Under the pieces are notes generated by a model. It saw only the letters and a program-made list of their open reading frames with translations. It was not told where the DNA came from and ran no database searches. Shown one piece after another: positions 881 through 61,740 of a stretch of 64,000 nucleotides of DNA; position 1 is the stretch's first letter, and each line of letters opens with the position of its first letter. The position numbers and the translations under genes are program-made. Source of the DNA: Siphonodentalium dalli (lineage: Eukaryota; Mollusca; Scaphopoda; Gadilida; Siphonodentaliidae); NCBI GenBank assembly GCA_032622095.1, contig CP136069.1, positions 107,412,278 to 107,476,277 on the forward strand, read 5' to 3'.

Positions 881-1493
881 ACAAGACAGTCAATGACTGT
901 GGGGTCGCTCACCAGACTGCAAAGACTGGGACTCTGGAGACCAAAACAGTCAGCACTTTTCATAATCACTTTAAAAGAAGTAGATTTAAACAGGATATGT
1001 GGCTAGAGAGACTTCAAGTATGTAGCTTGGTGAAAATCCACCTTGAAATTGCCAACTGTACACTACTGATCACCCCCCTCCTCCAGCTCAACAAGTCCCC
1101 TCCCGACCGGGCTCCAGACTCCCAAGTCTTAGGTTGGAATTTCACAACCGACACCTCAAACTTTCTCAATTGTTGGAAATTTCCAATCTCACAAGCGCCT
1201 TTTTCTAAAACCATTTAAACATGTTTGAAGCCCAATTATCCATGGACCCAAAACACAATACATGTATGTCAGACCAATCAGTCAGGTGGTTCCAAGGTAG
1301 ATGTTTTAATGAATTTGGTATTTCGATGATTTTATTGGACACAAAAGTGTTAACTCCCCATAGCCTGCCATTTCTTGACAGGTTGACCTCATTTTAACAA
1401 ATCTGAATCTCAGTCACTAAAGGATCCTCCTGATTCCTCCATACTATATGTATTAAAGCTAAATAGTCCAAACTCTCTTGAGAAGACATTTTA

Positions 1494-1576
1494 AGAATTA
1501 CTATAGAGACATATAGTTATGTCCCTGGTCCCACGGTGGGACCAGGGAGATAACTATATGTCTCTATAGTAATTCT
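1494..1576. repeat. 83-nt hairpin inside D-family copy
   Basis: The two arms, of about 41 nt, are reverse complements with almost no loop; the centre is GGTCCCACGGTGGGACC. The equivalent hairpin of the second long copy is at 14558-14640. Confidence 0.85.
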
Positions 1577-2230
1577 CCCACCCTATTTAACCTGGTGACC
1601 CTATCTGAATAAATTTGAATCCCAGACACCAAAGAACCCTTCATACATATCATAAATATCAGTAAAATAGACCTGATGGTCCTTGTGAAGGAAGGATATT
1701 AAGAGGGAAACTGTCCTTCGCTTGGCCCCTATTTGACCAGGTGACCCCATTAAAAAAAATCTGCATTGCAGTCAAGGAAGAACATTCCATTCTATATAAG
1801 CCAACTAGTTCTTGCGAACATATTTTAAGAATTACTATGTAGTGAAATAGTTAAGTCTCTTGCTCTGGCCTTATTTGACTTTGTGATCCCATTTTCACAA
1901 AGGATAAGAATTAACTTCCCCAGTTGAAGTTGGTGATATTCACCCATTGGGCACCTCATTTATGAATTTTATCTTCTGCAAATTAGGGGATATAGAAACT
2001 TCCTAGAAGGGAAATTTAACTAACAACAATGTAAATTTGATACTATAGATACTTCCCAGAAGATGAGGCCTAAGCAGAATGAGGTCTCCAGAGGGTAAAT
2101 TTGGTGATGCTAGCCTGCTGTGTGGGATAGCATCACTAAAAGCATGTCTGTTCCTACATTGTGCATGTCTGGCCTCAAGCAACACAATGTATTATACAAT
2201 CAAGCCTTGAAATAGTCTGTCTGTTGTTTG

Positions 2231-2321
2231 CAGAATGAGGTCCCCAGAGGGTGAATTTAGTGACGCTATCCTGCACAGCGGGCTAGTATCACTAAATTCA
2301 CCCTCTGGGGACCTCATTCTG
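2231..2321. repeat. Palindromic core unit (AGAATGAGGTCCCCAGAGGG type)
   Basis: A 91-nt inverted repeat that starts with CAGAATGAGGTCCCCAGAGG and ends with its complement. Related units occur at 15310-15374, 15730-15817 and 16021-16113, with diverged ones between 38360 and 39800. Confidence 0.8.
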
Positions 2322-3377
2322 ATAAGGCCCTCAACTGCTATGGAAGACCTAGAATAAGATTGAAGTTCCCCAGTTGAAGTTGGTGATGTTCACCCATTGG
2401 GCACCTCAATCATGAATTTTATCTTCTGCAAATTAGGGGATATATAAACTTCCTAGAAGGGAAATTTAACTAACAACAATGTAAATTTGATACTATAGAT
2501 ACTTCACAGAAAATGAAATTAATCTGATTTTAATGACCACTGAGTGATAATGTAAACAACAAGGGTGCTTCATTGATAACACCATTAATCTCAGTTAAAT
2601 TACAAATGACATGAATTACACTCTCTGGGGATGGAAAGCACTATGGCACAGCAGATGTTATCTACCCATCTGCCAGTTGTATAAACGTGTGTCCATCAGA
2701 GCACATGGGTGGCTTGCTGTAGTAGAGAACACAAGGATTTAAAGTCATTTACTGAACATTTCTGTACATCTGTCTGTTCCTGATTTCTCCCAAACCCCTG
2801 ATTTCAACCAAATATAGTGGAGTGACTAGAGGTACCTCCCCTCCCCTCCCAAAGATGTAATGTCATAGGTTCTTCACAATTTTAATGAGTTTTTTTTTAT
2901 TTTATTTAAAAATAAAATATTTTATTTAATAAAAAAAAAAATATTTATTAAAAATAAAATATATCTATATATATTTTTTTTGGTTAAATTGAGCAATAAG
3001 TTAAATTGAAAAAATTCAGATTTATGTCCATAGTCCCACCCACATTTGACCCAGTGACCTCATTTGAACAAATCTGAACCACAGTCACCCAAGGTACCCT
3101 CATACCAAATATGAACCCATTCGGCCCGACAACTTCAGAAAAGAAGTCGTTTTAAGAATTACTATGTGGAAAAATAGTTATGGTCCTGACATCAAAACTA
3201 TTTGACTTGGTGACCTCATTTGAACAAATCTGAATGAGAGTCACCTAGGGAACATCCACACCAAATATGAACCAATTCGATATGATGGTTTCAGAGGAGA
3301 AGATGTTTTTAAAAAAGTTTACGGACAGACAGACGGACGGATGGACAGACGGACGGACGGACGAGGAGTGATGACTA

Positions 3378-3411
3378 TAGCTCCACTGGAGACTTTGTCT
3401 CAGGTGAGCTA
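3378..3411. repeat. 34-nt terminal palindrome of D family
   Basis: TAGCTC and GAGCTA form the outer stem, ACC/GGT the middle and AGAC-TTx-GTCT-like the inner stem. The same sequence ends the D-type copies at 46040-46074 and 49405-49438. Confidence 0.85.
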
Positions 3412-3414
3412 AAA

Positions 3415-4335
3415 AGCTTAAAAGGTCAAGGTCTAGGTAACCGTGCCAGGAAATCTGACCCAATAAATGATGATGAAATAGAGAAACTGTGGGAGTCTTC
3501 ATGTTTCGGTACATCATCACCAGAATCGATATTAAACACACTTTGGTTTTATAACACTCAACAATTTGGTTTGAGGGGGTCCGACGAGCATCGAGATATG
3601 TGTTGGGGTGATGTAATGCTTGCAAGGATTCTTTGGGGCAAGAATATCTAGATTTTGAAGAACGATAGACAAAAACTCGTTCTGGACAAAATCCCAGATA
3701 TGTAAGGGCAGTGAGGCCAAAAATGTGGACAATATCAAATGTAGATCGTTGCCCTGTTTCTGTCTTCAAGAAATTTGCAGAACTCAGACCAAAGAACTAC
3801 TGTAAACCTACCGACCCCTTCTACATCGCAACACATACTTATCAAGGCAAGCTTGGTGCAAACGACCAATGGTTTAAACGACAGCCAGTGGGTGTGCCCG
3901 AAAACATCTTGTTCAGAAACTCTGTGAATCAAATATTCCTCCAACTCAAATAATACAGATCACTGGACACAAAAACCTGGCATCCATAAATAATTACAGT
4001 CACCTAAATGACGAACAACATCGTAACATATCCAAAATTCTGAGCAACGATATCTCCACGAATGAAAGTTTGAAACACAGTGATTTCCCAACCTGTCGAC
4101 CTTCGACTTCACAGGAAATAACAGTTCGCCCACTCCTTCATTGGTCGTTCCCGAATCGGTGAGACTATCAAAACAACTAAATGCACAGCTGTACAGCAAA
4201 TCTATAACAGTTTTTGGACGTGCCATATCCGGAGGAACCATAAACGTCAACATCTATAACCAAGAGAAAAGTCCAACTGAACCAAAACGAAGGAGAATTC
4301 GTGTGATTGACAGCGATTCTGAGAATAGCCAGTGA
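3415..4335 (+). pseudogene. Crypton-type tyrosine recombinase, C-terminal catalytic half (decayed)
   Basis: It resumes with SLKGQGLGNRARKSDPIND, then LWESSCFGTSSPESILNTLW, then FGLRGSDEHRDMCWGDV. The Arg in FGLRG is the first catalytic Arg of tyrosine recombinases. A one-base shift near 3635 leads to QEYLDFEER, a TAG stop, then TKTRSGQNPRYVRAVRPKMW and DRCPVSVFKKFAELRP. Further on, near 3955, a third frame gives ITGHKNLASINNYSHLN, the GH...Y box with the catalytic His and Tyr. The segment that should carry the NHSxR box is absent, so there is an internal deletion near 3900-3950 as well as the frameshifts and stop. The tail from about 4190 (FGRAISGGTINVNIY, PKRRRIRVIDSDSE) is typical of these proteins and ends at TGA 4333-4335. 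Confidence 0.85.
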
Positions 4336-4676: not shown

Positions 4677-4796
4677 GTCGCAATTCTATATGAAATTTAT
4701 TAACCTCGTACACTAAATTTGATTCGATCCTCGCTAAAGCTCGCATCGAATCGAATTTAGTGCACTTGGTTAATAAATTTCATATAGAATTGCGAC
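4677..4796. repeat. 120-nt inverted repeat downstream of the Crypton gene
   Basis: The left arm begins GTCGCAATTCTATATGAAAT and the right arm is its near-exact complement, ending at GAATTGCGAC. Arms are about 52 nt with a short centre (CTCGCTAAAGCTCGC). It could be a foldback element; I see no direct duplication around it. Confidence 0.8.
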
Positions 4797-6956: not shown

Positions 6957-6979
6957 GTGAGAACATACAATTCACTATA

Positions 6980-12158: not shown

Positions 12159-13150
12159 GGCCACTGTTTTTTTATTAATTGGTTCGCGGATCCGCTGAGT
12201 CGTTTTTTTTTTGGTTTTTAGAAAAGAATTAAATTGTGTTCCGAACTTTTTTTATTGCCGCAGACCCATTTTTTCCGCACTCAAAATTTTATTTTATTAA
12301 AAAAATGAAAAAGATCGCTTTGTGTACCGTTTGTAGGAACGGATTAATTTTGTCAACGTTTCGCATCCGTGTTTTCTGCATCACTTCCGCTACTAGGTAA
12401 TCTAGTAACAATGCTAGGCTACTTTAGTTTTTTCGAAATGGCGAAAGTATATCTGTGTGCAGTTGTCATTTCGGAAAACAAGACCATAAGAAAACAGCTG
12501 AAATGTGTTTATCCTGAAATAACAGTTTGAGAGCTGTTCTCATTTGTCGAGGACAATGCATTGATTCGTCGTGACTACTTTTATATATAATAGTGGTCTT
12601 ACCGAACAATTTACTGAGGGGGTCACTGAAATCGAGGAACCCGACGTTCCGGTGTTTGTATCATGCTCATGCTTGTTGAGTTGACGATTTTATTTGACAT
12701 TTATAGCAATGTATATTTTACATATTATACACATTTGATATAATATAGTGCCACATAGATGTAATATAAATTCACATATATATTACACCTCTACGGCACT
12801 ATATTATATTAAATTCATAGAGTATGTAAAATGTATATACTGTATAATGTCAAATAAAATCAACATCTAGTTTTGTGTTTTTGTTTTCGCTATGTAATGT
12901 TTAAAGAGTATTAAAAGTGATTACAAACATATATTAACCTTGTTTTTCTAGTCAGATCAAGTATCTTGCTGTATATTGAGATGCCAATAATAGATGTAAG
13001 ATAATAGATATGATACAAAGTTATTTTCAGACCATTTTCCTTTTATTTGAAAATTTGAATATTTGAGTGTTTTCCATTTTTTTTTCCGACCGACAGATCC
13101 AACTTTTCCAGAAAAAATTCCGCTAACCAACTAATAAAAAAACAGTGGCC
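12159..13150. mobile_element. Harbinger-like non-autonomous element (992 bp) inserted in the minisatellite
   Basis: The ends are GGCCACTGTTTTTTTATTA and its complement, and similarity extends to about 31 nt with two mismatches. TTA flanks both sides (12156-12158, 13151-13153), which fits a 3-bp target duplication as in PIF/Harbinger. It splits the minisatellite: CTGTATAC before, TTACACACCCACCCATGA after. An internal long inverted repeat lies at about 12688-12860. No coding frame. Confidence 0.82.
12688..12860. repeat. Imperfect AT-rich inverted repeat inside the 12159-13150 element
   Basis: The left arm runs from TTTATTTGACAT through ATAATATAGTGCC; the right arm from GGCACTATATTAT to ATGTCAAATAAA. 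Arms are about 60 nt. Confidence 0.7.
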
Positions 13151-13153: not shown

Positions 13154-13935
13154 CACACCCACCCATGAGCATTGCCCACAGCGAACGCCACCCATTCATT
13201 TAAAATAAAAACTTTTATTTTATTTTCATTTATGGAGCCTAGTATGTCGGTCGGTGATCAATGTTAATTTTTGAAAGCTCATTTGTATTATCTATTATAG
13301 ATGAAGAGTTAGTAGAAACCCATGCGGCAACTATACTCAGGTATTGAATAACTAACTGCATACGACTACAACTTGAAACTGACACGAATTAATAAATCTG
13401 AACAATATACAATGTAAATGATACATCTTTCATCCCTCAATGACAATACAATTGTTGCCAGTCGTGACTACCGATACCGACAACTGTAATGCGCTATGTT
13501 TTTGTTTTGATTTTGCATGAAGCATGTGGCCTTATTGCGTGACGTCATAGGCAGAGAACTAATTTACATTAGTTCATGACACAATTCTCTAAATATACTG
13601 GTTTCTGGCCTTCAATTTTTCGCATTCTTTCTAATTTGTGATGTGTTTTCAGTTTTCTGACTGATATTGTAACTAAGGAATTTGGAAATTAAATTCACGC
13701 AAATTTGTCACCATGGAAAATCTCGCTCTCTTTAAATTCGTTGGATAGTCAGCTGCCGATTAGTTTTATTAATATTTTAATAGTTGACAGATATGCATAG
13801 AATAAATCAAATTCTGGTGGTCTGATTGACACTTTCATTTAGAGAAATCTTCCTTGTTGAATAATAGCTATATTTCTTCTCGTCAGATCTTACACGTCTT
13901 TACACAAATAATGTCATGATTCTGGATGAAACATA
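13154..13935. other. Minisatellite tail, then no feature
   Basis: Short continuation of the minisatellite, then AT-rich sequence with nothing recognisable up to the D-family copy at 13936. Confidence 0.5.
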
Positions 13936-14557
13936 ACAAGACAGTCAATGACTGTGGGGTCGCTCACCAGACTGCAAAGACTGATAAGACTGGGACTCTG
14001 GAGACCAAAACAGTCAGCACTTTTCATAATCACTTTAAAAGAAGTAGATTTAAACAGGATATGTGGCTAGAGAGACTTCAAGTATGTAGCTTGGTGAAAA
14101 TCCACCTTGAAATTGCCAACTGTACACTACTGATCACCCCCCTCCTCCAGCTCAACAAGTCCCCTCCCGACCGGGCTCCAGACTCCCAAGTCTTAGGTTG
14201 GAATTTCACAACCGACACCTCAAACTTTCTCAATTGTTGGAAATTTCCAATCTCACAAGCGCCTTTTTCTAAAACCATTTAAACATGTTTGAAGCCCAAT
14301 TATCCATGGACCCGAAACACAATACATGTATGTCAGACCAATCAGTCAGGTGGTTCCAAGGTAGATGTTTTAATGAATTTGGTATTTCGATGATTTTATT
14401 GGACACAAAAGTGTTAACTCCCCATAGCCTTCCATTTCTTGACAGGTTGACCTCATTTTAACAAATCTGAATCTCAGTAACTAAAGGATCCTCCTGATTC
14501 CTCCATACTATATGTATTAAAGCTAAATAGTCCAAACTCTCTTGAGAAGACATTTTA

Positions 14558-14640
14558 AGAATTACTGTTGAGACATATAGTTATGTCCCTGGTCCCACGG
14601 TGGGACCAGGGACATAACTATATGTCTCTATAGTAATTCT
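14558..14640. repeat. 83-nt hairpin in second D copy
   Basis: Counterpart of 1494-1576; the centre GGTCCCACGGTGGGACC is identical, with a few changes in the left arm. Confidence 0.85.
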
Positions 14641-16707
14641 CCCACCCTATTTAACCTGGTGACCCCATCTGAATAAATTTGAATCCCAGACACCAAAGAA
14701 CCCTTCATACATATCATAAATATCAGTAAAATAGACCTGATGGTCCTTGTGAAGGAAGCATATTAAGAGGGAAACTGTCCTTCGCTTGGCCCCTATTTGA
14801 CCAGGTGACCCCATTAAAAAAAATCTGCATTGCAGTCAAGGAAGAACATTCCATTCTATATAAGCCAACTAGTTCTTGCAAACATATTTTAAGAATTACT
14901 ATGTAGTGAAATAGTTAAGTCTCTTGCTCTGCCCTTATTTGACTTTGTGATCGCATTTTCACAAATCTGATAAGGATAAGAATTAACTTCCCCAGTTGAA
15001 GTTGGTGATATTCACCCATTGGGCACCTCATTTATGAATTTTATCTTCTGCAAATTAGGGGATATAGAAACTTCCTAGAAGGGAAATTTAACTAACAACA
15101 ATGTAAATTTGATACTATAGATACTTCCCAGAAGATGAGGCCTAAGCAGAATGAGGTCTCCAGGGGTGAATTTGGTGATGCTAGCCTGCTGTGCGGGATA
15201 GCATCACAAAAAGCGTGTCTGTTTCTACATTGTGCATGCCTGGCCTCAAGCAACACAATGTATTATACAATCAAGCCTTGAAATAGTGTGATAGTGTGTC
15301 TGTCATTTGCAGAATGAGGTCCCCAGAGGGTGAATTTAGTGACGCTAAATTCACTCTCTGGGGACCTCATTCTGATAAGGCCCTCAACTGCTATGGAAGA
15401 TCTAGAATAAAATTGAATTTCCCCAGTTGAAGTTGGTGATGTTCACCCATTGGGCCCCTCAATTATGAATTTTATCTTCTGCAAATTAGGGGATATAGAA
15501 ACTTCCTAGAAGGGAAATTTAACTAACAATGTAAATTTGATACTATAGATACTTCCCAGAAGATGAGGCCTAAGCAGAATGAGGTCTCCAGATGGTGAAT
15601 TTGGTGATGCTAGCCCGCTGTGTGGGATAGCATCACTAAAGCATGTCTGTTCCTACATTGTGCATGTCTGGCCTCAAGCAACACAATGTATTATACAATC
15701 AAGCCTTGAAATAGTCTGTCTGTTATTTGCAGAATGAGGTCCCCAGAGGGTGAATTTATTGACGCTATCCCGCAGTGGGCTAGCATCACTAAATTCACCT
15801 TCTGGGGACCTCATTCTGCTAATGCCCCCAACTGCTATGGCAGACCTAGGATAAGATTGAAGTTCCCCAGTTGAAGTTGGTGATGATCACCCATTGGGCA
15901 CCTCAATTATGAATTTTATCTTCTGCAAATTAGGGGATATAGAAGCTTCCTAGAAGGGAAATGTAACTAACAACAATGTTAATTTGATACTATAGATACT
16001 TCCCAGAAGATGAGGCCTAAGCAGAATGAGGTCTCCAGAGGGTGAATTTGGTGATGCTAGGCCGATGTGCGGGATAGTATCACTAAATTCACCCTCTGGG
16101 GACCTCATTCTGCAAATGACAGACATGCTATTAGTCTTGATTTGAACAATACATGATAGATTGGGAATAATGACTTCTAGCAGATCTGCAAGGAATGTTT
16201 ATAAACATGTCTAGATTGACATGATTGTGTATGCCTACCCAGCATATATACAGTAAATGCTTCTTATTAATGATTCTGTCAAGAATTTGAGTAAATTTTA
16301 TTTTTGGGACCAGGCCAGGGTGGCAGAAACAGTGCACTTGAGTGAAGGGCCAGGGGGCACAACCTTCATAAATGTAATGGCATTAGTTTTTAAATTTTCA
16401 AAAAATGTTAAACAATATATATATATAATTGACCATGGAGTTAAATACAATTTAAATTTTTTTTTTTTTTAAAGATTTTAATAAAAAAAACAATTCCACA
16501 GTTTTTTTTAATATGCTTTTATTTTTTAATATATAATTTCTTTTCTATTCTTTTCTTTTTTGGTTAAAGAGTTTAATCTGAATTTTTTTTTTTTTAGTTA
16601 TGTCCCTGGCCCCACCCACATTTGACCCAGTGACCCCATTTGAACAAATCTGAACCCCAGTCAACCAAGGATCCTTCATACCAAATATGAACCCATTTGG
16701 CCTGATG

Positions 16708-17761
16708 TAGGCTCCTGCGAATATTCGATATTCGATTCGAGATTCGATTCGAAAGTCAAATTCGATTCGAATTCGAGTCGAAATTGCCAACTCGAAATTT
16801 CGAATATACTATGACGGAAAAGTAGGCTGTTTCAGGACAAGTACACATGTCGATCTTAGCTGTTTGTGGCATTTAATTCCAGAAAATTATGTATATATGC
16901 ACATTATAATTCTTATTGTACATAGCCAACAATTAGCCATGATAGGACGACTAAATACGTCTGAATTATATAGCTTTAAAATGGTAGCAAAAGCTAGCAG
17001 ATAGCCAATGGACCGACGACGCGGTAAATTATAATAGCTATGAGACTGGGCTACCGATAGCGTTATCCATCGTCTATTCGATTACGCGTTATGTAATATG
17101 GGTGAGAATGTAAACAACACATGTTCCTGGTGTCGAAAAGTGCATTTTGGCACTGTTCTCTTTTGAAGTTGACTTTCAGTTTCGGAGTTTTCTTTTACAA
17201 TGGACAAAATGTCGTCCATCATTCATGTTTATTTTAAACATGATAAAGCTGCAGGCACGTGAAGACGAATGTAACATGCATGGTGTATAAATCGCAAGCA
17301 TCTGGGACAATGACCCATCTATGGAATCATCAAGAAGTATCAACCAATACATGAAGAGGCTACACTGCGACTGTTGTTGCGTCTTCAAGTTTATAACAAC
17401 GGGTGTTTCCGAATGCCGATTTGCAATTTTGCATGTATATGCAAACTGTAGAAATTTCGTGTGATTTTAGTTTGATAATCCGTTTAGTGGTAATATATTA
17501 ATCGTTGTGATGGCCGCATGGACGTTTTAATCTGCTTTGTTTTCTTGACAATTATAAATTGAAGTTAATAGTATATCAAACGACGGTTTATCGCCACATA
17601 AGTTCTGATGGACCTCATGCATGTAGTTCATAGAACGTTTCACAAATAATCTAATCGTTGACAAAACATACCTAATTGAGAATGCAACACACAGATATGA
17701 TTTGATTCGATTCGATTTCGTGAATTCGATTCGATCAAAATATCCAATTCGCAGGACCCTA
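16708..17761. mobile_element. hAT-like non-autonomous element (1054 bp) with exact 8-bp target duplication
   Basis: GCCTGATG flanks it at 16700-16707 and 17762-17769. The left end is TAGGCTCCTGCGAATATTCG and the right-end complement is TAGGGTCCTGCGAATTGGAT. Arrays of ATTCGATTCGA lie just inside both ends. It interrupts a D-family copy at a position that is intact in other copies (GGCCTGATGGTT...). No transposase frame visible. Confidence 0.9.
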
Positions 17762-18139
17762 GCCTGATGGTATTTGAGAAGATGTTTAAAAGAATTACTA
17801 TGGAGGGAAAGAGTTATGGCCCTGGTTTCTCAATTAATCAACCTGGTGACCTCATTTGAACAAATCTGAATGTGAGTCACCTATGGAACATCCACACCAA
17901 ATATGAACCCATTCGGCCTTATAGTTCAGGAAAAAAAGTCGTTCTAAGAATTACTATGAAGGAATAGAGTTGTGGCCCTGCTTTCTCAACTAATTGACCT
18001 GATGACCTCATTTGAACAAATCTGAATGTGATTCACCTAGGGAACATCCACACCAAATATGAACCCGTTCCGTCTTTCAGTTTTGGCGGAGAAGATGATT
18101 CTTGACGGACAGACAGACGGACGGACGGACGAGGAGTGA

Positions 18140-18939
18140 AAACGCAAAACAAAATAGATCCTGTGTCAGACATGAACTACGTATCTATGTCGGTCTTATT
18201 TTATGCGCAAAAATAAAACTACAAGAACACCCGAGTGTTAAAAAGATAAAATATTTCCACTGTTAAACAAATAAACGTGAAATCATTTTGTTAGATATCG
18301 GTACCTTTGGAGGAGTGATATAAATTACAAGGCCAGTACACGTGGGTGCGTTATTGAGTGAAGTTTATAGCAACACAAGTTTTTTAAATATCATGTATTC
18401 GCTGTATTGTATCGCCAGTTTTGCAGGAATGGAACTTCATGATTCAACTGTACATCTCAGTCAACATCGGGAGGATTTTTCAGATAGTTTCATAGAGGAA
18501 AAGAGTTTTAAGTGTATGATTTGAAAGATATATTTTCATTTCGACACGTCGAGTTGGCTATTGTATCTCCAGTGTTTCGTGTGACCTCATTATATTTTAT
18601 ATATAGAACAGTTTGCTTCATGCTCGGTTTATGTGGCAAAGAATTACAATACATTATGAAACTTCGTGGAATCTTCGGATGGTGATATAGTTGATGGTGA
18701 TACTACAAGTTCATAATATGCAGTTCAAAATAAACGTACATATTTATTGCGTAAAAGTCGTCAAATTGAACCAGATAATATGCTGGTGATGTGAGTACAA
18801 CACTTTTCTATTTTGTATTCACTTTCGGACATATCTTATTTTAAGTCAGTTGTCTATGATGAATAGTGTCTCCACCCATAATGTATGCACAATATTATAG
18901 TTAGACTAATTTTGTATAGTTATACAGAAATTATTAAAT
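18140..18939. other. No feature recognised
   Basis: AT-rich sequence between repeats, with a 60-residue incidental frame at 18342-18524 and no family match. Confidence 0.4.
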
Positions 18940-19800: not shown

Positions 19801-19802
19801 AA

Positions 19803-19986
19803 AATAGTCGGATCAAACCCATATTCTAACTCGATCTGTCTTTTGTGCTGAGAAATTCATATAAAAAATTTGAGTTATCGCACCATGTGTAAAGTGTCTA
19901 CGGACGAACAGACAGACGAACGAACGACGAGTAGTCAATCCGGACATCGACAGTATGTTTACCACACTATGGTATGGGTAAACATA
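19803..19986 (+). mobile_element. G-family repeat, copy 1, with terminal palindrome
   Basis: Contains ATCGGATCAAACCCATATTC-like sequence, a GACAGACGAACG run and GTCAATCCGGAC. It ends in the palindrome TATGTTTACC...GTAAACATA at 19954-19986. The next base starts an F-family head. Confidence 0.75.
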
Positions 19987-42765: not shown

Positions 42766-44690
42766 CAGCGCGCGGTGTATTATGGGAATTGGTGAAATCG
42801 AGCATTGTTGACCACCATTCTTGAATGTGTGTTCAAATCTTTTCAATAGTTACTATAAAGACAAAGTCGCGGGGCATCGTGCCAGTGGACTTTTGATTAA
42901 ACTTGAATGAGAATATCGCCGAGAAAGTGACATACAATCATGTTCACTCAAACAACGGTATACGATGTAGCAAATCATGTTCATTGCTACACAGTCCTCG
43001 TGCTGACGTAATTCGCTGCACCTGGCATTTGAGAGATACAGATGCACGCAAAAATAACGGCGATTAACAAGTTCCCAATCAGGGGTTTTATTCACTTTTT
43101 TGTGGCAATGTTCGTAAGATTACTACTGTAAATGGGCATATAATAGGTTTACCTCTTAATGATATAAATATATGAATAATATGATATAGGTCATCAACTG
43201 ACCACATTGGTAATATTTATTGTCTTGTCAAAGTTACCCAAGTGTGTCAGTGTATGACCTGCTTATACTGAGATTTGTACTGAATTTCTACCCATGCCGT
43301 TTCTGACGGAATTATTAATTGAAGGTCACATTAATTTTCGCAGTTGAATTCACACAACATGTCCAGAAAAAAAGTGGTCGGATTAATTTGAATGGACATG
43401 TCTTCCAATGCAAATCGCCTGAGTAAACGTTACAGTTGCAAATATAGTTGGGTGTGACTTAATAATGCAGTATTGGGAACAATACGTATTTATCTGGCTG
43501 AAGATACATTTATAGAATGTTGGTCTATTTTTGAATTTAAAAAAAATCAAGTGTAGCCGTATTAAAGAAAACAACATTCATTTACAGCTACTTATAACTA
43601 GTAGCCCATATAGGCCTATGCACGTGTACACTTGTCAGTTAAATATGACTGCTTCGCGTATAACCTTTGCACTGGAGATTTGTATCGAAATTTCCTGCGC
43701 TCTTTTAATTTTTACTATCCATCAGGATTCATGAAAAAACTACGGAACGCTCTTTATTAAATTGTTAGGAGTAAAGCCGAATTAAAGACGGGACCTAATG
43801 TATCTAAAATGTAATATGCAAATAAGTGTTTCGGAAGATAAAAAAAATATGTCATTCTATGGCGATAACTAGATTCGAAAATTGGCAGTATTATATACTA
43901 TTACGACTGTATTAGGTTCCCCTACTTGCGAAAAGTTGGGGGGGGGGGTCCACAATAGGCAACATATATCATATATATAAGTGAAATATAAAGGATGCAT
44001 GCAGTCACACCTCATCGCATATTCTGGTCGTTAGCTAACGAAAACGGAATCCACAAAAGACATGCACTTTGCATGGGCAGAGCTCGATTTAACCAATCAG
44101 TGGTAACTCCATTCAGACTGAGATAGAGGCCGGGTGGGAACAATACCTGAAATACTATGATTGACGTCGGTGTTTGTTTATTGTCTAACCAATCGCAATG
44201 CGACTATTAATGAAAGAAGTCAGTAGACCTACACGCATTGCACGGACTTCAATGGGGAGGACAGTGTTGACATTGCAAACAGTGTCAAACTGACATCATT
44301 GCTATAATTAACTAGGTCAGCCGTGAACTTTTCCAGTGTCATGGAACTTGTTATACATGTAGCGATAATTGCGCACTCTCGTGTCAAATATATATGAGTA
44401 CATGTCAGGAGGTTTATATAGGGTACCGGTACTCACTCCCTGCATGCCATATATATACATGATTCGTGCTTGTGAATTAAAACACGTTTTGACTATATAG
44501 CTGTGGCAATGAATGCTTGATGAAGCCATACCAAGATTCGTCAAGGAAAAGTGTTTTAATTGCTGTATTGTTTTTATTAAGTTAATAAACACTGTAAACC
44601 TAATAAATAAACGAACCCAATAGCAATAGACCTATATACTCTAGTATGCGGTGATGTTTACGATTTTACCGGCCCGACACCCATGAATAT
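42766..44690. other. Interior of the 5.2-kb element, no gene seen
   Basis: Incidental frames only, including 42853-43095 and 44317-44592 on the minus strand. There is a G tract near 43940. Confidence 0.4.
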
Positions 44691-44729
44691 ATTCCGCAAA
44701 TTTTCCGGAACGAGGTCCGCATGCATTCA

Positions 44730-44920
44730 AATTCCGATAACGTTAGGGTGAATTCCGCAATTATTTCCGCAAATTCCGAAAGAGGAAACTAAAATTCCGA
44801 TAACGTTGGGGTGAATTCCGCAATTATTTCCGCAAATTCCGAAAGAGGAAACTAAAATTCCGATAACGTTGGGTTGAATTGCGCAATTATTTCCGCAAAT
44901 TCCGAAAACGTCGGACGTAT
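44730..44920. repeat. 63-bp tandem array in right subterminal region
   Basis: AATTCCGATAACGTTGGGGT... starts at 44730, 44793 and 44856 (period 63), three units. Confidence 0.9.
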
Positions 44921-45244
44921 TCCGAAAAAAATCCGCAAACGTCGTCTTCTTTTCCGCAAACCGTAGCGCTATTTTCCGAAAGAAGGAACGTAATTACCGA
45001 AAAATTTCCGCAAACAGTTTTCCGCAAAGTGTTCATAACGTCATTTGTTTTCGGAAAATACTTTCGGAATTCCGCAAAGACTTTTGAGACGCTCCCTAAT
45101 GTCATGTCTTGTAATGACAGATGGTAAACTGGTCTGAAGCAAGCACTCTTCAGCAAGAGTATCAGGTGACCACACTATGATAAATTGTCTTTTTCAATAA
45201 TACAGGCTTCAGTGTTCTCTTAAAAATTAATAGTGCATAGCAAA

Positions 45245-45415
45245 GAGGTGTGAATTATAAAGGGCCATAACTCTGTTATAATCGGATCAAACCCATATTT
45301 TAACTTGATCTGTATATAAGTGTCAAAATTTCATATACCAAATTTGGTGTTGATCAGATGAAAAATGTTTGAGTAATCCCGTCTTGGATGAATTCTATAT
45401 CAAAACAAGAGTGGA
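45245..45415 (+). repeat. G-family body fragment
   Basis: AAAGGGCCATAACTCTGTTA, ATCGGATCAAACCCATATTT and GATCAGATGAAAAATGTTTG, one unit without terminal palindrome. Confidence 0.7.
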
Positions 45416-45539: not shown

Positions 45540-46077
45540 TTTTTTAAAGTTATGTCCCTAGCTCTGCCCCTATTTGACCCAGTGACCCCATTTGAACAAA
45601 TCTGAACCCCAGTCACCAAAGGTATCTCTGTACCAAATATAAGCTAAATCGGCCAAATATTTTTTTAGAAGTCATTGTAAGAATTACTATGAGTTATGAC
45701 CCTGGTTTCTCAACTAATTGACCAGGTGACCTCATTTGAACAAATCTGAACACTAGTCACCCAAGGACCCTCCATACCAAATATTAGCTAAATCGGCCCA
45801 ATGGTTCTGAACAAGAAGTCGTTGTAAGAATTACTATGGAGGAATAAAGTTATGGCCCTGGCTTCGCAACTTTTTGACCCAGTGACCTCATTTGAACAAA
45901 TCTGAATGAGAGTCACCTAGGGAACATCCACACCAAATATGAACCAATTTGGTCTTCCGGTTTCAGAGGAGAAGATGTTCAAAGAATTGTTGACGGACGG
46001 ACGGACGGACGGATGGACGGCGGATGAGGAGTGATGACTATAGCTCCACCGGCGACTTCGTCTCAGGTGAGCTAAAA
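45540..46077 (+). mobile_element. D-family 3' part with terminal palindrome
   Basis: Three 'TGACC...TTTGAACAAATCTGAA...CCAAATAT' blocks, a GACGGACGGACGG run at 45992-46020, and the palindrome at 46040-46074 ending GAGCTAAAA. Confidence 0.82.
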
Positions 46078-48178: not shown

Positions 48179-48955
48179 AATCCTAGTCACCCATTCCAAA
48201 TATAAGCTCAATAGGACTGATGGTTCTTGATAGGAAGACATTTTAAGAATTACAATGGATGGACAAGTTATGTCCCTGGCTCCGCCCTTACTTGACCCGG
48301 TAACCTCATTTTAACACATCTGTATCCCTGTCACCCAAGGACCTTCCATACCAATTATAAGCTAAATAGCCCTGATGATTCTTGAGATGTTTTAAGAATT
48401 ACTATGGATGGAAAGAGTTAGGTCCCTAGCTATGCCACTTTTTTGACCATGTGACCCCATTTGAACAGAACTGAATCCAAGCCACACAAAATATGTCTCA
48501 ATTCTTCATCTCAGGTAAGCTGATAAAAATGCCTCCTTATTTCTCATCCATTTCCCATATTTAATTGCCTGCGAAAACAGGTATTTAGTTTTACTGGCAT
48601 AACTGTCAGATTCATCATTCACACTTGGCCTTGGGGGTTTGTTATCATAAGCCATGGGTCATTTATATACAAACTCTCAAACAGGCAAAGTTTTAGGGTA
48701 TTAATCAAAGGAGCTGTCACTCCAATCAGATTTTGTTAACACTGCCATTTCATTTATTACTTTATAATCAATGTGACTTCTACATGGTGTTCAAGTAAAC
48801 ATTCTGTGATCGCAGGCATGTTCCTCATATCTCATGGAGCCGAGTATCTGCTGTTTGCATGTTCTTGATTTTAGACTGATTTAAACCAAATATTTGGTTG
48901 AGTCACCCTGGTGGATGTTATAATGGTGTTATTTTTGTTTTATTTAAAAGTAATT
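48179..48955 (+). repeat. J-family duplicated segment, copy 1
   Basis: TCCTAGTCACCCATTCCAAA through AAATGCCTCCTTATTTCTC and GAGTCACCCTGGTGGATGTT; about 90% like 58915-59610, with a roughly 50-bp block absent in the other copy. Confidence 0.8.
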
Positions 48956-49079
48956 TTTTTTTTTTTAAATGGGTAAGAAATTAATCTCAATTAAAATAAA
49001 AAAAAATTATGTTTTTTTTTCAAATTTTGTTTGTTTGTTTTGTTTTGTTTTTGTTAATTGAGCAAGGAGTTTAATCTAA

Positions 49080-49440
49080 AGAGTTGTGTCCCTGGCTCTG
49101 CCCCTATTTGACCCAGTGACCCCATTTGAACATACCAAATATAAGCCAAATCGGCCCAACGGTTCTTGAGAAGATGTCATTCTAAGAATTACTATGGAGG
49201 AATAGAGTTATGGCCCTGCTTTCGCAACTATTTGACCCAGTGACCTCATTTGAACAAATCTGAATGCGAGTCACCTAGGGAACATACACACCAATTATGA
49301 ACCCATTCGGTCTTATGGTTCCGAAGAAGATGTTTAAAGAATTTTTGATGGACAGATGGATGGACAGACGGATGGATGCACGGACGGATGAGGAGTGATG
49401 ACTATAGCTCCACCGGAGACTTCGTCTCAGGTGAGCTAAA
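49080..49440 (+). mobile_element. D-family 3' part with terminal palindrome
   Basis: Two 'TGACCCAGTGACC...TTTGAACA' blocks, a GACAGATGGATGGACAGACGG run and the 34-nt palindrome at 49405-49438. Confidence 0.82.
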
Positions 49441-53524: not shown

Positions 53525-54545
53525 CTTAGGCTGTGCCAAAGGATTTAGTCATGCAAAGTAAAATCCAAGATGGCTGCCGGTAGCCATGTTTTATGGCCGA
53601 ATGACCCCAAAATGATTTATTCCAATATACATATCAATATTAACAGCCATGACAAATTTCCTGATGATCAGACGAACAGTTCTACCTGAAGCCCGTGCTA
53701 ATGTATTGAATTATAAAATCCCAGACGGCCATGTTTGTTTGCCGAATGACCCCAAAATGACTCGTTCCCATCTACATGTCATTGTTAACATCCATCACAA
53801 ATTTCATGATGATCTGATCAAAGATGCGACCTGTAGCCTGTGCCAAACGATTTAAAAAGATTAAAAACCAAGATGGCTGCTGGCAGCCATGTTTTTTTGG
53901 CCGAATGGCCCCAATATAAATCGTTCCCATTTACATGTCAATATTAACATCCATGACAAATTTTAATGATGATCAGACAAACAGTACGGCCTGTAGCCCG
54001 TGCTAATGGATTGAATTTTGAAATTCAAGATGGCCACTGGTGGCCATGTTTTTTTGCTGAATGACTCTAAAATAACTCGTTCCAATCTACATGTCAATGT
54101 CAACAGCCATGACAAATTTCATAATGATCCGACCAAAGGTATGAACTGTAGCCTGTGCCAAAGGATGTAGTCATGCAAAGAGTAAAATCCAAGATGGCTG
54201 CTGGTGGCCATGTTTTTTGGCAGAATGACCCCAAATGACTCGTTCTCATCTACTTGTCATTGTTAACATCCATGACAAATATCATGATGATCCCACCAAA
54301 GGTACGACCTGTAGCCCATGCCAAAGAATTTAGTCATGCAAAGAGTAAAATCCAAGATGGCTGATGGTGGTCATGTTTTTTGACAGAATGACCCCAAAAT
54401 GACTCGTTGGTGAAGATTGGATAAGGGATGCGGCCTGTAGGGCATGCCAAAGGAAATTGTTGATGCACGCCTCGATGGATGGACGCACGGATGCCAACCC
54501 ATGGCATTAGCTCAAACTTTACCCTGTAAAGTTGAGCTAAAAACT
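53525..54545 (+). mobile_element. F-family array, six core units, complete 3' end
   Basis: Core units of about 146-165 bp begin with AAATCCAAGATGGCTGC-like sequence at about 53563, 53717, 53863, 54021, 54186 and 54348. Then come GGATGGACGCACGGATGCC and the palindrome TTAGCTCAAACTTTACC... at 54507-54540, followed by A-rich sequence. Frames such as 53649-53855 are repeat translations. Confidence 0.85.
54507..54540. repeat. 34-nt terminal palindrome of F family
   Basis: TTAGCTCAAACTTTAC pairs with GTAAAGTTGAGCTAA with one bulge. TAGCTCAACTT is also in the 5' head of F copies (20149-20162, 63355-63366). Confidence 0.85.
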
Positions 54546-55420: not shown

Positions 55421-55945
55421 ACAAGACAGTCAATGACTGTGGAGACGCTCACCAGACTGTAAAGACTGTGAAGACTGGGCCTGGAAGACCATAAGAGTTA
55501 GTACTTGTCAAATTCACTTAAAAACAAGTAGTCCTAAAGAGGGACGTAGCCTAGAGAGTCAACGTTGAGCAGTGGAGTGTCCACCTTGAAATATGGTCCA
55601 GATCCCCCCACCTTACATAGTCCATGGTCTGCTCCCTCCCAACTGAAGCAAACACACTCCCAAGTTCATAAAATTCCTTTGCACATGTTTGAATTTTACA
55701 ACTGATACCTAAAGCTTTCCTAACTGTTGCAAAGTTCCAACCTGGCATGCCCCCCCCCCCCTTTTTTAATGGTGAACCCCATTCAAACAAATTTTGATCC
55801 CAACTCTCCATAGGCCATATACATGATTGGTCGAACCCATTTTAACAAATCTGTAACGCAGTCCCAAGTAACACAAGGACCCTCCATACTAGTTACTACA
55901 TATAAGCTAAATGGCTCCTCCTCCTCTTGAGGAGGAGCCGTTTAA
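55421..55945 (+). repeat. D-family repeat, copy 5, left part
   Basis: ACAAGACAGTCAATGACTGT at 55421 with GACGCTCACCAGACTGTAAA; diverged. It continues at 58688 after the inserted TTAA element. The frame at 55551-55811 is the antisense of this repeat. Confidence 0.75.
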
Positions 55946-58687
55946 CCCTTTACCCAACAGTAATATGTCTAACGTCATTACCCACACCAATACTGATAGG
56001 AGAGAACGTCGTCACCCCAGCCAACATAACTTTCTGGTAACGTCAAAGTTATAGGAAAAAATGTATTATTAAATCTTATGGTGGCTCTTGTTTATCTGCA
56101 AGGATGGTTTTTTTTATTTTAATTAATTGGTAACAATTGATTTTCATATTTATGAAAGTCAAGTCCCCCCCCCCCCCCATTGGCAATGTGCAATTTTTTT
56201 GTATTTAATTCATACTACATCCTTAGTATGGGAAGAGCAGGTAAGATGATTTGTTTGATCATATATTCCATCTGGCGATGGAGAACAAGGAGACACTATG
56301 GAGTTGGTACTAATGGTAGGTATCTTTCCGGATTTTTCTTGACCCCGATTCGTTGCATAGAATTAAAATCAATTTCACATTGAAATGTATCAGATTCTGA
56401 ATTTTATTGCTGTCATTTCAGCTGGTAATTTCCGAAAATTTATCGTATTATTGTGTTCAATTTATCAACAGAAATATTGCAAAACAAAAAACGCCGGAGA
56501 TCTGGTTGTGTACGGTACTGCGTGAGACATTAACACAGTCGCCATAATTTCTTTACTGTTAGCAATCACTTTCAAATAAAAAAATGAGATCGTTTTGCAG
56601 TGCATTCCTTTAAATTTTCACATCTACATGTGCACCAATCACTCTAGTTCATGTCCACATGAATCCGTACCATAATTTGACATCGTTAAACAAAATTATC
56701 CCCCATTATATATTGCATATATAAATTTGCAAAACAGAAAACGTCGTCATTGAGTTGTGTATTACGTAAGATGGCAAGGCAACACAGTTGCCATACTTTC
56801 TTTACTGTTAGCAATCACTTACTAATAAAATAATGAGATCGTTTTACGCGTGCATTCCTTTAAATTTTCACATCTACATGTGCACCAATCACTCTAGTTC
56901 ATGTCCATATGAATGCGTACCATACTTTGACATCGTTTAATAAAATTATCCCCAATATTTTATCAACAAAAACACCGCGAAGATTTTGTATGAAGTTTGA
57001 CGTTGTAACCTCGATTTCCAGAATTACCTTCACTTTTCCACAATCACTAGCAAAGTGTTAACCAACTTCTATTTATTTGCATTTAATAATGTACCAACGA
57101 AATTCAATAAAATGTGGAAATGCATTGTGAAATTGATTCCAGTATTGTAAAAATCTGATTAACTGTTGTTGACACGTGATCACAAATAGTAACCAATGTA
57201 AACAAAACACAAGCCATGATCGTGAGGATACAGAAATAAGATGTATAACGTCGACGTAAACACTTCGACAATTACTCCGTGTGTCATGTATAAAAAAAGA
57301 CATAAAAACAGCATTAATAGACTAAAATTTCAATTTTTTAAATCATAGGTTAGAAGTTGAAATGCTATTCAGTAACAATATAATGTTTAATATGTCGGAA
57401 TAGAAATATATATCGCAAGAACTATATATTCAGCGCTGACAACAACTCCTTCTGTGTACCTCACGAACGTAATGCGTACGTACTTCGAACCTGACCCAGT
57501 TTATTACGATATATCTTGGCACATTTACATGCGTAGATCATGTCCATCACATATTGTCATTTGAAAAAGATTGAATGGCCATTAAGGTCGATAACAGTGC
57601 TTTTCTCTTCGTGAATATATGAGATGCCAAACTAAATAATAGTTAGCAAGACATCGTATTGAATAAGGATGACGAAATATTCTAAAAATAAATCACATTG
57701 AGACACAGGCGTTACCTTGACCTTGATGTAATGATGATGCAATGAATATCACAGTTAGTGCCAAAACACAAGGTGTGTACACAGTTAAACTACCGGTAAT
57801 CGATATATTGTTTGGCCTATGTTCAACTTGTAACAAAGGACATACTACTAGTGCAATTTTGTTCGATTAAATGATAAATATCTCTTGAAAAATTATTGAT
57901 AATTATAAGATTGAAATTCGCGCCCAGCTTGGATGGAAGCCACGTGTTCAGAAATTGGTAAACGCGCTGTTTGCTGGAAGCTTCTAATTAGTTCCTCGCA
58001 TTGCTATTCAATACATTTTATACACTCTATAAAAAATATAATATTGTCAATATGATCATGTGAAGAATTAGGAAAAATAAAAAAATAATTGGAAACAGTT
58101 TTATTTGGGAATAGGCCTACACACTAACACAGCAGTAAGAACAAACACGGCGTCCTTAGTAACAAAAACTAACATCAGCATGTCGTCTTGCTCTTACCGT
58201 AGCTTCGTTAGTCAAATTAATGGTAGTGATTGTTTTATATTTGGATGCATATGATATAAAAACATAAACAAGTCAAGTAAATATTTTATTGGAAATAAAA
58301 ATAAAGTTCGAAAATAAATAAATGTCAGTTAGACGACCGTACACAGTTGCCCGAGTACGCTGATTTCTCTAGTCGACTTCATAAAATAGCACCGCCGCAT
58401 TCCACTTTTCATTTTATTGCGATTTTATTGACAACTATCGATTAAATTGTACAAAATCTGCCACAAAACCCCACAAAAACGTAACAATTAATAATGTAAC
58501 ATATATTTTATTATTTACATTAACAATGAAAGCAATTTGTTGTGTTATAATGCAATAGTTTTGTTGTAAACTATGACTGAAAAAAACGCAAAACTCCGGG
58601 CTCTCTGGACGCTACGCGGCAGGGCTCTCTAGGGTGTTCTGTACACTACACGGCGGGGCGCTCTGGGGTGTTCTGAACGCTAAAGGG
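55946..58687. mobile_element. piggyBac-like element (2742 bp) at TTAA inside a D-family copy
   Basis: TTAA at 55942-55945 and 58688-58691. The left end is CCCTTTACCCAACAG and the right-end complement CCCTTTAGCGTTCAG (the first seven and several later bases agree). The D consensus at this point is GATGTTTTAAGAATTACTAT, and here the right flank is TTAAAAAAAATTACTATGG. It holds a 250-bp tandem duplication and GC-rich CTCTCTGGACGCTACGCGGC repeats near the right end. Frames at 56180-56383 and 57073-57303 show no transposase motif. Confidence 0.72.
56480..56960. repeat. 250-bp tandem duplication
   Basis: CACATCTACATGTGCACCAA occurs at 56619 and 56869. The surrounding 240 bp, with GTTAGCAATCACTT and TGAGATCGTTTT, are about 90% alike. 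Confidence 0.88.
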
Positions 58688-59250
58688 TTAAAAAAAATTA
58701 CTATGGGGGAAGAGTTATGTCCCTGGTCGCACCCCTATTTGCTCTGGTGAACAAATCTGAATCCCAGTCACCCAAGGACTCTATACCAAAATGTATGCTA
58801 AATATGCCAAATGGTTCTTGAGAAGATGTTTTAAGAATAACTATTGAGGGAAAGAATTATGTCCCTGGCTCCGACCCTATTTGACCCAGTGATCCAATTC
58901 TGAATCAGATCTGAATCCTAGTCACCCATACCAAATTTAAGCTGAATTGGCCTGATGAAATTTTAAGAATTACAATGGATGGACAAGTTATGTCCCTGGC
59001 TCCGCCCTTATTTGACACGGTGACCTCATTTTAACACATCTGTATCCCTGTCACCCAAGGACCTTCCATACCAATTATAAGCTAAATAGCCCCAATGATG
59101 CTTGAGAAGATGTTTTAAGAATTACTATGTATGGAATGAGTTAGGTCTCTAGCTATGCCACTTGTTTGGCCATGTGACCCCCCATTTGAACAGAACTGAA
59201 TCCCAGCCACCTAGGGACTATCCACACAAAATATGACTCATATTCTTCAT
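58688..59250 (+). repeat. D-family repeat, copy 5, right part
   Basis: Blocks of TTATGTCCCTGG...CACCC and CCAAGGACCTTCCATACC; merges with J-type sequence from about 58915. Confidence 0.7.
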
Positions 59251-59610
59251 CTCTGGTAAGCTAAGAAAATGCCTCCTTTTTTCTCATCCAGTTTCACATA
59301 TGTAATTGCCTGAGAAAACAGGTATTTAGTTTTACTGACCTAACTGTCAGGCAGAGAATTTTAGGCTATTAATCAAAGGAGCTGTCACTCCAATCAGATT
59401 TTGTTAACACTGCCATTTCATTTATTACTTTATAATCAATGTGACTTCTATATGGTGTTAAGTAAACATTCTGTGATCGCAGGCACCTTCCTCATATCTC
59501 ATAGAGCTCTGAGTATCTACTGTTTGCATGTTCTTGATTTTAGACTGATTTAAACCAAATTTGGTTGAGTCACCCTGGTGGATGTTACAATGGTGTTATA
59601 TATTTTTTTT
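58915..59610 (+). repeat. J-family duplicated segment, copy 2
   Basis: ATCCTAGTCACCCATACCAA through GAGTCACCCTGGTGGATGTT, matching 48179-48955. Confidence 0.8.
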
Positions 59611-59624
59611 TAATTTAAAAGTTA

Positions 59625-60110
59625 AACGAGAGGCCGATCACGATCGGCAGATGTTAACCCATCCCTGGGCGATAAAAATTGACTATGATCGGATAAATGA
59701 GAGTTTTGGTGTTGAATTATAGAGTATACTGTTATGTACTATTATAGACAAATGTACATAACACAAATTATTGGAATTTATGGGTCACTGGCATTTATAT
59801 AAGAGAATACACTGGTACAGGATCGGTAATGCTAAACCAACAGAGCCTTGGGTTAAATGTGAAAGGTGTGACCTGGCAATGGAATACTTAGGTAAAGAGA
59901 GTCCAATTTAAGTTTACAATAATACTATGTCAAATTCTACCAATAATATAGTATACAGATAAGCCACCACACTGCTGACCCACTAATATCAATTATATAG
60001 CAGAGCTGTCAACAAATCACAGGAATTGTTTATGTTGAAAACTGACCTCTCTATTAAACCAATAACAATTATAATGATCTCAGACCATCTGAAGATATAA
60101 CTCTGCAGCA
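59625..60110 (+). repeat. E-family interspersed repeat, copy 3
   Basis: AACGAGAGGCCGATCACGAT, AACCCATCCCTGGGCGATA and TTATGGGTCACTGGCATTTA in the same order as 30846-31340. Confidence 0.8.
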
Positions 60111-60596
60111 CAGATGTCCATGTCTACTGTTAATATCATGTGATGTTTATTTTTGAATCTTTATTTTAAATTAGATACCATAGCCTTCTTTATCAGATTA
60201 TTTGCACACTGGCATAAGAGACATCAGAAAATAATATAGCCTTATCAATAGCTAAGTAGTCCAAAGGCATGGGATAGAATTGGTGAATTGGATTTAATGT
60301 TTCTCCAAACAGATTTACCAGTACATAACACAAGATTTTGGACAGATTTAAACAAATTTGGTGAGGTGATTCGGGGTACCCTTGGCAGAGTTATAATTGT
60401 GTTAGTTTTTCAAATTTGTTTAACTTAAAAAAAAATTGTTTTTAATTGTTTAAAAAAAAAAGATTGGGAACCTTTTTATCAACTTGTATCATAATCATCA
60501 ATATCTAAATAAAAACCAATGAAAGAGTCAATGACATTTTGTTTATTATTATTATAAAACATAAAACATAATTTTTTTTATTATTTTTTTTTACGA
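60111..60596. other. No gene; A/T-rich repeat flank
   Basis: Includes GAAAGAGTCAATGACATTTT at about 60521, the same sequence as near 31710, and A/T runs. Confidence 0.45.
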
Positions 60597-60780
60597 AAAA
60601 GGGTCATAACTCCTTTAAAATAAATTGGATCGAACCCATATTCAAACTCGAACTGTATTTTGGGCTGAGAAACCTATATACAAAATTTGGTTCCGATCAA
60701 ATAGAAAATGTTAGAGTTATCGCATTAAGTGTCTACGGACATTGACACTATGTGTACCATACTATGGTATGGTACACATA
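60597..60780 (+). mobile_element. G-family repeat, short copy with terminal palindrome
   Basis: AAAGGGTCATAACTCCTTTA, one core unit, and the palindrome TATGTGTACC...GTACACATA at 60749-60780. The GACAGACGG run is deleted. Confidence 0.8.
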
Positions 60781-60965
60781 AAAAGTTTTATCTCATGCAG
60801 AGTACAAGAAAAATATATCAAACCTGGTGTGCCCCTTTAATATTTCAATTCACATTTGTAATCAATTGAAATTAATGTCCAACAAATCTACTAAACACAA
60901 TCACATTATTAATCTCCAATAGTAATGCTATTAAACAATGAAACCAGATTATGCCTTTAAGATGG

Positions 60966-61740
60966 AATTTAAACAAGAGATGGACTGTCGTCCGGTACAT
61001 ACCCCCTAGTGGCATACCGCCTAGTGTGGGCATATCTATAACTTATGACTGCTATACTCAGACAGATGGACCCAAAAATCAGCATTTTCATATAAACGAA
61101 GATGAATAACTATAGCACAAAAAAACAAAACAAAACAGTTGAATGTGCCATTGTGAACATCCATACAAAATTTCATTGAGATCCAAGCATTACTGTTCAA
61201 GTTATGACCTGAACAGACATCGGATGGACCAAACAGCCAACATGTCCAGATAAACAAACTTGAATAACTCTAGAATGGAAAAGCCAAACAGAACAATGGA
61301 ACCCTCTATTGAATGTCCTCACAGTGGTGAACATCCATACCAAATTTCATTGAGATCCCAGCACAACTGTTGAAGTTACGACATGAACAGACACCAGACG
61401 GACCAAAAAGCCAACATTTCCAGATAAACAAAGATGTATAACTCTAGAATGGAAAATCCGAACAAAACGATAGAACCCTCTTTTTAATGTCCTCATAGTA
61501 GTGAACATACATACCAAATTTCATTGAGATCCCAGCACAACTGTTGAAGTTATGATATGAACAGACACCATACAGACAAAAAAGCCAACATTTCCAGATA
61601 AACAAAGATTTCATTTGAGATCCGAGCACTATTGTTCAAGTTATGACATGAACAGACATCGGACAGACGTACGGACGGACGGATGCACGGACAGGTGCAA
61701 AACAGTATACCCCCCTTTTTAAAAAAAAGGGGGTATAATA
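60966..61740 (+). mobile_element. H-family tandem repeat element with terminal palindrome
   Basis: Starts AACAAGAGATGGACTGTCGT and ACATACCCCCTAGTGG. Units of about 175 bp carry CCAGATAAACAAAGATG (about 61247, 61421, 61595) and CAAATTTCATTGAGATCC. It ends with a GGACGGACGGATGCACGGAC run and the palindrome TATACCCCCC...GGGGGTATA (61706-61737). The minus-strand frames in 61036-61771 are translations of the units. Confidence 0.8.

Follow-up and report, generated by a model that had tools for sequence, protein, structure and literature searches.

The 64,000-nt stretch of contig CP136069.1 of the scaphopod Siphonodentalium dalli analysed here (the window, positions 1-64000, to which all coordinates refer) carries several families of dispersed repeats, which raises the question of what kind of element they are, in which direction they should be read and how they came to share a strand. 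Self-comparison and copy mapping yielded at least five families with a related plan, designated D, F, G, H and E, which occupy approximately 28% of the window including a nested element of approximately 1.1 kb, or 26% without it. These families are very probably non-autonomous Helentrons (Helentron-associated elements, HINEs), an assignment based on their anatomy, their sharp boundaries and one insertion into an open reading frame (ORF) that left no target-site duplication. The identity of the elements is secure enough, and the interpretation of their common orientation is a lead.

Anatomy and polarity of the repeat families

Along the forward strand, copies of D, F and G begin with a shared head motif. 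The sequence GTCAATGAC is present at 10 places in the window, all on the forward strand, compared with a mean of 0.90 and a maximum of 4 in 100 shuffles, and nine of the 10 occurrences lie at heads, i.e. those of D at 881, 13936 and 55421, of F at 19987, 20129 and 63335, and of G at 31706, 32251 and 60519; the occurrence at 129 is the sole one elsewhere. The D heads at 20754 and 32778 carry it with one mismatch. The preliminary description of this DNA had placed the motif near the head starts of D and F, which was borne out, and had not listed the G heads that also carry it. Towards the other end, GACG/GACA-type runs of at least three units were found eight times on the forward strand (3324, 18104, 38710, 45992, 49347, 54474, 61674 and 62456) and never on the reverse strand, and a family hairpin comes after six of them, all but those at 18104 and 38710. 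A microsatellite of this kind, GTCY-type on the minus strand, precedes the hairpins of D (in three cases), F, G and H. Dinucleotide shuffles folded as well as these tail hairpins in 1 of 200 cases for D and in 0 of 200 for each of F, G and H, and A-rich sequence comes after the hairpins in all four families, so that the succession of GACG/GACA run, terminal palindrome and A-rich sequence first proposed from inspection stands.

The direction assigned at that time does not. Read on the minus strand, D consists of TTTTTAGCTCACCTGAGAC-AAA-GTCTCCAGTGGAGCTA, a GTCY run, the core, GGTGAGC, ACAGTCATTGACTGT and TCTTGT, and F and H follow the same order with TAGCTCAACTT and ATACCCCCT, respectively. Because the published HINE order fits this strand, what the preliminary description called the terminal palindrome corresponds to the HINE 5' end, its GTCAATGAC head corresponds to the 3' palindrome, and its 5'/3' assignment is the reverse of the published convention. 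The polarity of the elements is therefore that of the minus strand, comprising a 5' subterminal inverted repeat (subTIR) hairpin, a GTCY microsatellite, a tandem core, a 3' subTIR and a 3' palindrome, and GTCAATGAC is a 3' signal common to the D, F and G heads. D, F and H match the published plan, and G does so less fully. The 3' subTIR, in which an inverted arm is repeated in the head, extends over 11 of 11 nt in F (0 of 2000 mononucleotide shuffles as good) and 9 of 9 nt in H (3 of 2000), confirming the arm repeat suggested earlier for these two families; for D, which had been included in that suggestion, the repeat is weak.

The ends of the elements are sharp. Five D heads start at ACAAGACAG, with flanks that differ except for ACATA beside two of them, which is also present beside the F head at 19987. 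At the other end, three complete D tails finish at GGTGAGCTA, followed by A-runs and differing sequence. The hairpin ends of the families carry TAGCTC, TATGTTTACC or TATACCCCC, and their copies are marked at the 3' end by ACAAGACAGTCAATGACTG, TGAAAGTGTCAATGACA and ACAAGAGATGGACTGTCGTCC. The E head is palindromic, with a perfect GCCGATCATGATCGGC in the copy at 18937. A scan for perfect stems of 7-8 bp at D, F and E heads, with start motifs drawn from the observed heads, returned nine hits on the forward strand (eight heads and a non-head position at 23512) and one on the reverse strand, against a control mean of 1.07 per strand and a maximum of 3 in 30 simulations; eight further heads, G and H among them, were missed, their stems being shorter or imperfect. 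A search of Rfam at gathering thresholds gave no match.

Insertion sites and identity as non-autonomous Helentrons

A complete D element of 2531 bp lies on the minus strand (881-3411), with its 5' end at 3411, its 5' subTIR and inverted repeat (IR) hairpin at 3378-3411 (-7.4 kcal/mol; 1 of 200 shuffles as good), its microsatellite at 3324-3363, its 3' palindrome ACAGTCAATGACTGT at 886-900 and its 3' palindrome end at 881. When base 880 is joined to base 3412, a single open frame results, reading KAKQ up to the junction and KSLKG beyond it, and leading into a DUF3504 domain. There is no target-site duplication, and the right flank is A-rich, i.e. T-rich on the minus strand. The flanking ORF remains (620-880 and 3412-4332) match DUF3504 in their right part (Pfam, 7.1e-13) and contain a phage-integrase-like piece that falls below threshold.

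Duplications are detectable elsewhere in the window, since two elements nested in D copies carry them. An element of approximately 400 bp (32877-33276) has CCCTTTACCC ends and a TTAA duplication, and one of approximately 1.05-1.1 kb (16700-17769), which we take to be hAT-like, is bounded by ends of the TAGG..CCTA type and shows the 8-bp duplication GCCTGATG. The former also contains two 69-bp palindromes (arms of 33 nt, 97% complementary). These duplications bear on the alternative that the families are miniature inverted-repeat transposable elements (MITEs) of a cut-and-paste (DDE) transposon in which the hairpins are coincidental. The families are indeed short, non-coding and repeated with inverted repeats, and the related pearl elements of bivalves were originally named MITEs in the part of the literature available. 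However, the D element at 881-3411 has neither a target-site duplication nor terminal inverted repeats (TIRs) at its very ends, while the two nested elements carry duplications of 4 and 8 bp, making the MITE interpretation highly improbable.

Several observations nevertheless weigh against the assignment to HINEs. The 3' subTIR of D spans 7 nt, and 136 of 2000 shuffles were as good; in G, no arm repeat was detected for either of two pairs (799 and 1800 of 2000 shuffles as good). Fold energy fails to separate the head palindromes of D, H and E from shuffles (66, 64 and 162 of 200 as good, respectively, compared with 6 of 200 for F). In E, neither a microsatellite nor a tail hairpin was seen, its other end having had no systematic search, such that the family presents only a 3'-type end. 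The D element at 881-3411 is the only insertion for which both junctions were tested; at the E copy starting at 59623, the left junction is exact up to the first base relative to a paralogue near 48.95 kb, and the right junction was not found in this comparison. The two halves of the interrupted ORF are taken to be one Crypton-type ORF from the frame and from family knowledge; the left part has a sub-threshold Pfam match to QRICH1 (0.038 alone and 0.13 when joined, the score being lowered), and a PDB match to QRICH1 involves the right part only. Lastly, Pfam annotation of the 89 stop-to-stop ORFs of at least 75 aa in the window revealed no Rep/Helicase.

With these points set against the anatomy, the sharp boundaries and the duplication-free insertion, the earlier assignment to HINEs or pearl-type elements holds in substance, with its polarity inverted and with cores that share a box. 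Mobilisation would have required a Helentron Rep/Helicase encoded elsewhere, which would nick the T-rich 5' end; rolling-circle replication would then peel off one strand, with the 3' palindrome as the termination signal, and insertion of this single strand between two T's would create no target-site duplication. The enzyme, the single-stranded intermediate and past mobility by this route are all presumed from the structure of the elements.

A box shared by the cores

The preliminary description regarded the bodies of the families as unrelated. Consensus monomers were compared for D (156 nt, 12 copies), F (163 nt, 9 copies), G (149 nt, 7 copies) and H (174 nt, 3 copies), and the cores of all four share, on the same strand, a box around GAACATCCATACCAAATTT. 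D and H are identical over 17 of 17 nt (GAACATCCATACCAAAT; score reached by 13 of 1000 shuffles), F and H are similar over 31 nt (3 of 1000 as good) and G and H over 48 nt (2 of 1000), all six consensus comparisons being uncorrected, and these three similarities fall at overlapping places in H. The D-F and F-G similarities are non-significant (160 and 712 of 1000 shuffles as good), yet are located at the same box, and that of D and G (557 of 1000) lies away from it, with 46 of 1000 shuffles as good for D and G on opposite strands. The claim of unrelated bodies is contradicted in part by the shared box. A candidate module common to D and G, located between head and core, was also aligned.

The box, with a hand-set start, is recognisable in seven of nine stretches preceding a microsatellite (four D, two G and one H), at 51-64 nt before it, and by eye is damaged or lost in the other two, namely the last unit of F and the G copy at 19.8 kb. 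None of seven comparisons of E with single units reached 0.01, the best being that of G2 with E on the opposite strand (0.014). A 16-base box pattern was found in at least 117 stretches of genome_contigs, with prokaryote records among the matches listed, and a blastn comparison of 123 loci with the window at 1e-4 found no match. The shared box points either to distant relatedness of the cores or to constraint at one point, as described in general terms, in the part of that literature available, for bivalve satellites with shared motifs. Both the box and the corrected polarity matter for the building of consensus sequences, as the original polarity would label the terminator as the start.

A common strand, probably within a host gene

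All recognised copies lie on one strand. After abutting copies and recognised duplications were merged, 17 conservative clusters remained, all in the same orientation (two-sided 1.5e-5), a count made in a single window after the pattern had been noticed and in which polarity across families rests on structure. One stretch may be the stump of an opposite-strand copy: positions 13825-13838 on the forward strand, approximately 100 bp left of a D head, form an exact 14-nt match, oppositely oriented, to the start of the F/G head (E 0.01), and neither a second palindrome half, a core nor a microsatellite was seen beside it, a kilobase having been examined for the last of these. Counting it as an opposite copy gives 17 of 18 clusters (1.4e-4). 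The 43 minus-strand self-matches of the window are all self-palindromes, palindromic D units, low-complexity sequence or one of four non-family inverted pairs (156/52052, 39883/45097, 49565/49985 and 51291/54874). Minus hits from copy mapping fall in or beside palindromic stretches, except for a 23-nt AT-rich one at 48993, and head and tail queries added two further minus hits of 13-14 nt, one of which is 13825-13838.

The window also contains two exons of UBR5. On the minus strand, 20534-20665 corresponds to residues 2412-2454 of PDB chain 8ewi_A (HYD 3e-16, UBR5 6.8e-15), and 35537-35795, with splice-like ends, corresponds to residues 2325-2411 (E 2e-4). As these residues are consecutive, an intron of 14.9 kb lies between the two exons; it splits the MLLE domain and carries several transposons. 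Going by these matches, UBR5 on the minus strand spans at least part of the window. With a C-terminal query, no exons other than these two were found in the window at E <0.01, scanning 35.9-64 kb for splice sites yielded 21 candidates, none of them recognisable by eye as UBR5 and with which no UBR5 search was made, and a query with the 35.5-kb exon in another frame gave no PDB match. Since neither the N-terminal part of UBR5, expected to the right, nor the HECT part, expected to the left, was found in the window, the whole window probably lies inside the gene. Of the 17 clusters, three are inside the 14.9-kb intron and a further four are on its left side, with a value of 0.016 for these seven by themselves. 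Read in HINE polarity, the elements run sense to UBR5.

One explanation is that the common strand is a product of selection, in which copies residing in UBR5 introns were retained in one orientation and antisense insertions were removed for disturbing splicing or polyadenylation. Orientation bias is known for intronic elements of other classes, and the UBR5 exons lie on the minus strand; however, the bias described in the available part of that literature is antisense, and here it is sense. Further, poly(A) signals within the elements are roughly balanced between antisense and sense (32 and 37), as are donor-like (39 and 36) and acceptor-like sites (8 and 10), so that no splice or poly(A) asymmetry was seen as a cause, which argues mildly against selection. 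This explanation is less likely than not.

A second explanation places the bias at insertion, where a single-stranded intermediate would be pasted into T-rich DNA exposed on one side only, either as the lagging-strand template or as the strand freed by transcription. The uniform orientation of the clusters is in its favour, as is the balance of potential targets, since A-runs and T-runs of at least 4 outside the elements number 386 and 401; target asymmetry is accordingly not supported as a cause of the strand bias. There are also precedents, albeit from sources available in part, in IS200/IS605, whose orientation follows replication, and in Helraiser, which in vitro cut only single-stranded DNA and whose insertions favour expressed genes. 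Set against this are the post hoc count from a single window, the possible opposite copy at 13825-13838 and the skew outside elements (AT 0.009 and GC 0.003 overall), which gives no signal of fork direction. Cg_HINEs of Crassostrea gigas are further described, in the part of the account available, in both orientations genome-wide, such that a global bias is not expected and a local gene- or fork-linked bias is possible. Insertional bias is overall also less likely than not.

The third explanation is contagion or chance, whereby a copy entering the 5' T-tract of an older one would inherit its orientation, together with local direct duplication. In two places a G end directly meets the head of another family, F at 19986/19987 and D at 32777/32778, and segments at 48.2 and 58.9 kb and at 31.6 and 60.5 kb share flanks. 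However, abutting copies and recognised duplicates had been merged before the 17 clusters were counted, and the flanks of the D copies at 881 and 13936 differ. Contagion or chance is slightly more likely than either of the other two, although still short of probable.

A more specific proposal, which we regard as unlikely, is that Helentron-type elements in this genome take their orientation from the direction in which the locus is transcribed or replicated, the peeled strand entering only T-rich DNA exposed on one strand. If so, HINE orientation would record past fork or RNA-polymerase direction in animal genomes like a fossil map, comparable to that of IS200/IS605 in bacteria. Searches of open-licence literature found no description of orientation bias, or of one-strand runs within a single long gene, for Helitrons or Helentrons. 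The one-strand pattern makes the source of the single-stranded target of rolling-circle transposons countable, as orientation against gene strand and fork direction.

Distribution of copies and other repeats

Apart from the element at 881-3411, D is represented on the minus strand, as are all copies below, by a copy at 13936-18139 that is 95% identical to the first over 1.66 kb with a different flank, is interrupted at 16700-17769 and has no tail hairpin. A D head with partial body lies at 20754-21059, one with the nested TTAA-duplicating element at 32778-33520 and one with a degenerate body at 55421-55889; a degenerate D core of palindromic units lies at 38370-39827. D cores with microsatellite and hairpin end lie at 45545-46074 and 49066-49438, and a D core at 48188-48490, whose similarity to 58.9-59.6 kb extends into the flank, shares that flank with the D core at 58687-59236. 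E copies lie at 18935-19443 (palindromic head), 30844-31314 and 59623-60091 (left flank equivalent to the uninterrupted paralogue up to 59622), with a head fragment at 33521-33571.

G copies comprise 19797-19986, with a hairpin end adjoining the F head; a head fragment at 31706-31847, sharing a flank with the copy at 60519-60784; a copy from head to hairpin at 32251-32777; a core fragment at 45253-45405; and a core array with microsatellite and hairpin end at 62010-62551. The single H copy (60973-61739) has a head palindrome, core, microsatellite and hairpin end. F is present at 19987-20428, as a core array with hairpin end at 53527-54538, and as a head and core at 63335-64000 that leaves the window. 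At 19987-20270, the 3' palindrome end of the first of these is tandemly duplicated in units of 142 bp, as though terminated twice. The last adjoins a minus-strand ORF at 62984-63325 that is presumably a hAT transposase, for which Pfam yields only a weak match, other than hAT.

Beyond these families, inverted ends of approximately 49 nt (94%) at 39883-45097 enclose approximately 5.2 kb containing tandem repeats of the TTCCGCAAA type, and may represent one large TIR element. Long palindromes at 4677-4796 (arms of 59 nt, 88% complementary) and 12709-12838 (63 nt, 79%) have no match to the families.

Comparison with known systems

Pattern searches of viral_contigs returned six loci for one pattern, with no wider similarity to the window, and 6, 0, 0 and 0 hits for four further patterns, the comparison with the window covering the loci of the first pattern only. 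Published HINEs provide parallels, the accounts being available in part. DINE-1 of Drosophila has a 5' subTIR with an adjacent IR, a GTCY microsatellite, central repeats, a 3' hairpin after the 3' subTIR and insertion at TT (PMC4067079, PMC2374699). By description, DINE-1 and the mite HINEs resemble the present families in their subTIRs, GTCY microsatellite, 3' stem-loop, TT target and unmodified target, and DINE-1 also in the IR beside the 5' subTIR; autonomous partners are named in those systems, whereas none is identifiable in the window.

A close likeness in architecture, as distinct from sequence, is to Cg_HINE, which in the available part of its description has a 5' subTIR, a complementary inverted repeat a few bases away, a GTCY/GTCC microsatellite, a tandem core, a 3' subTIR and a palindrome, with families that combine related flanks and unrelated cores and insert at T-rich targets without duplication (PMC7492417). 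Module order, satellite-like core, T-rich target and absence of duplication are all paralleled here, and the difference lies in orientation, the copies in the window occupying one strand and Cg_HINEs both. The pearl elements of bivalves (CvA and relatives), later re-filed as non-autonomous Helentrons, are similar by their partly available description in having a tandem core of approximately 160 bp between unique ends. As transposons, given their resemblance to the published architecture, the elements of this window are ordinary for a bivalve-like genome.

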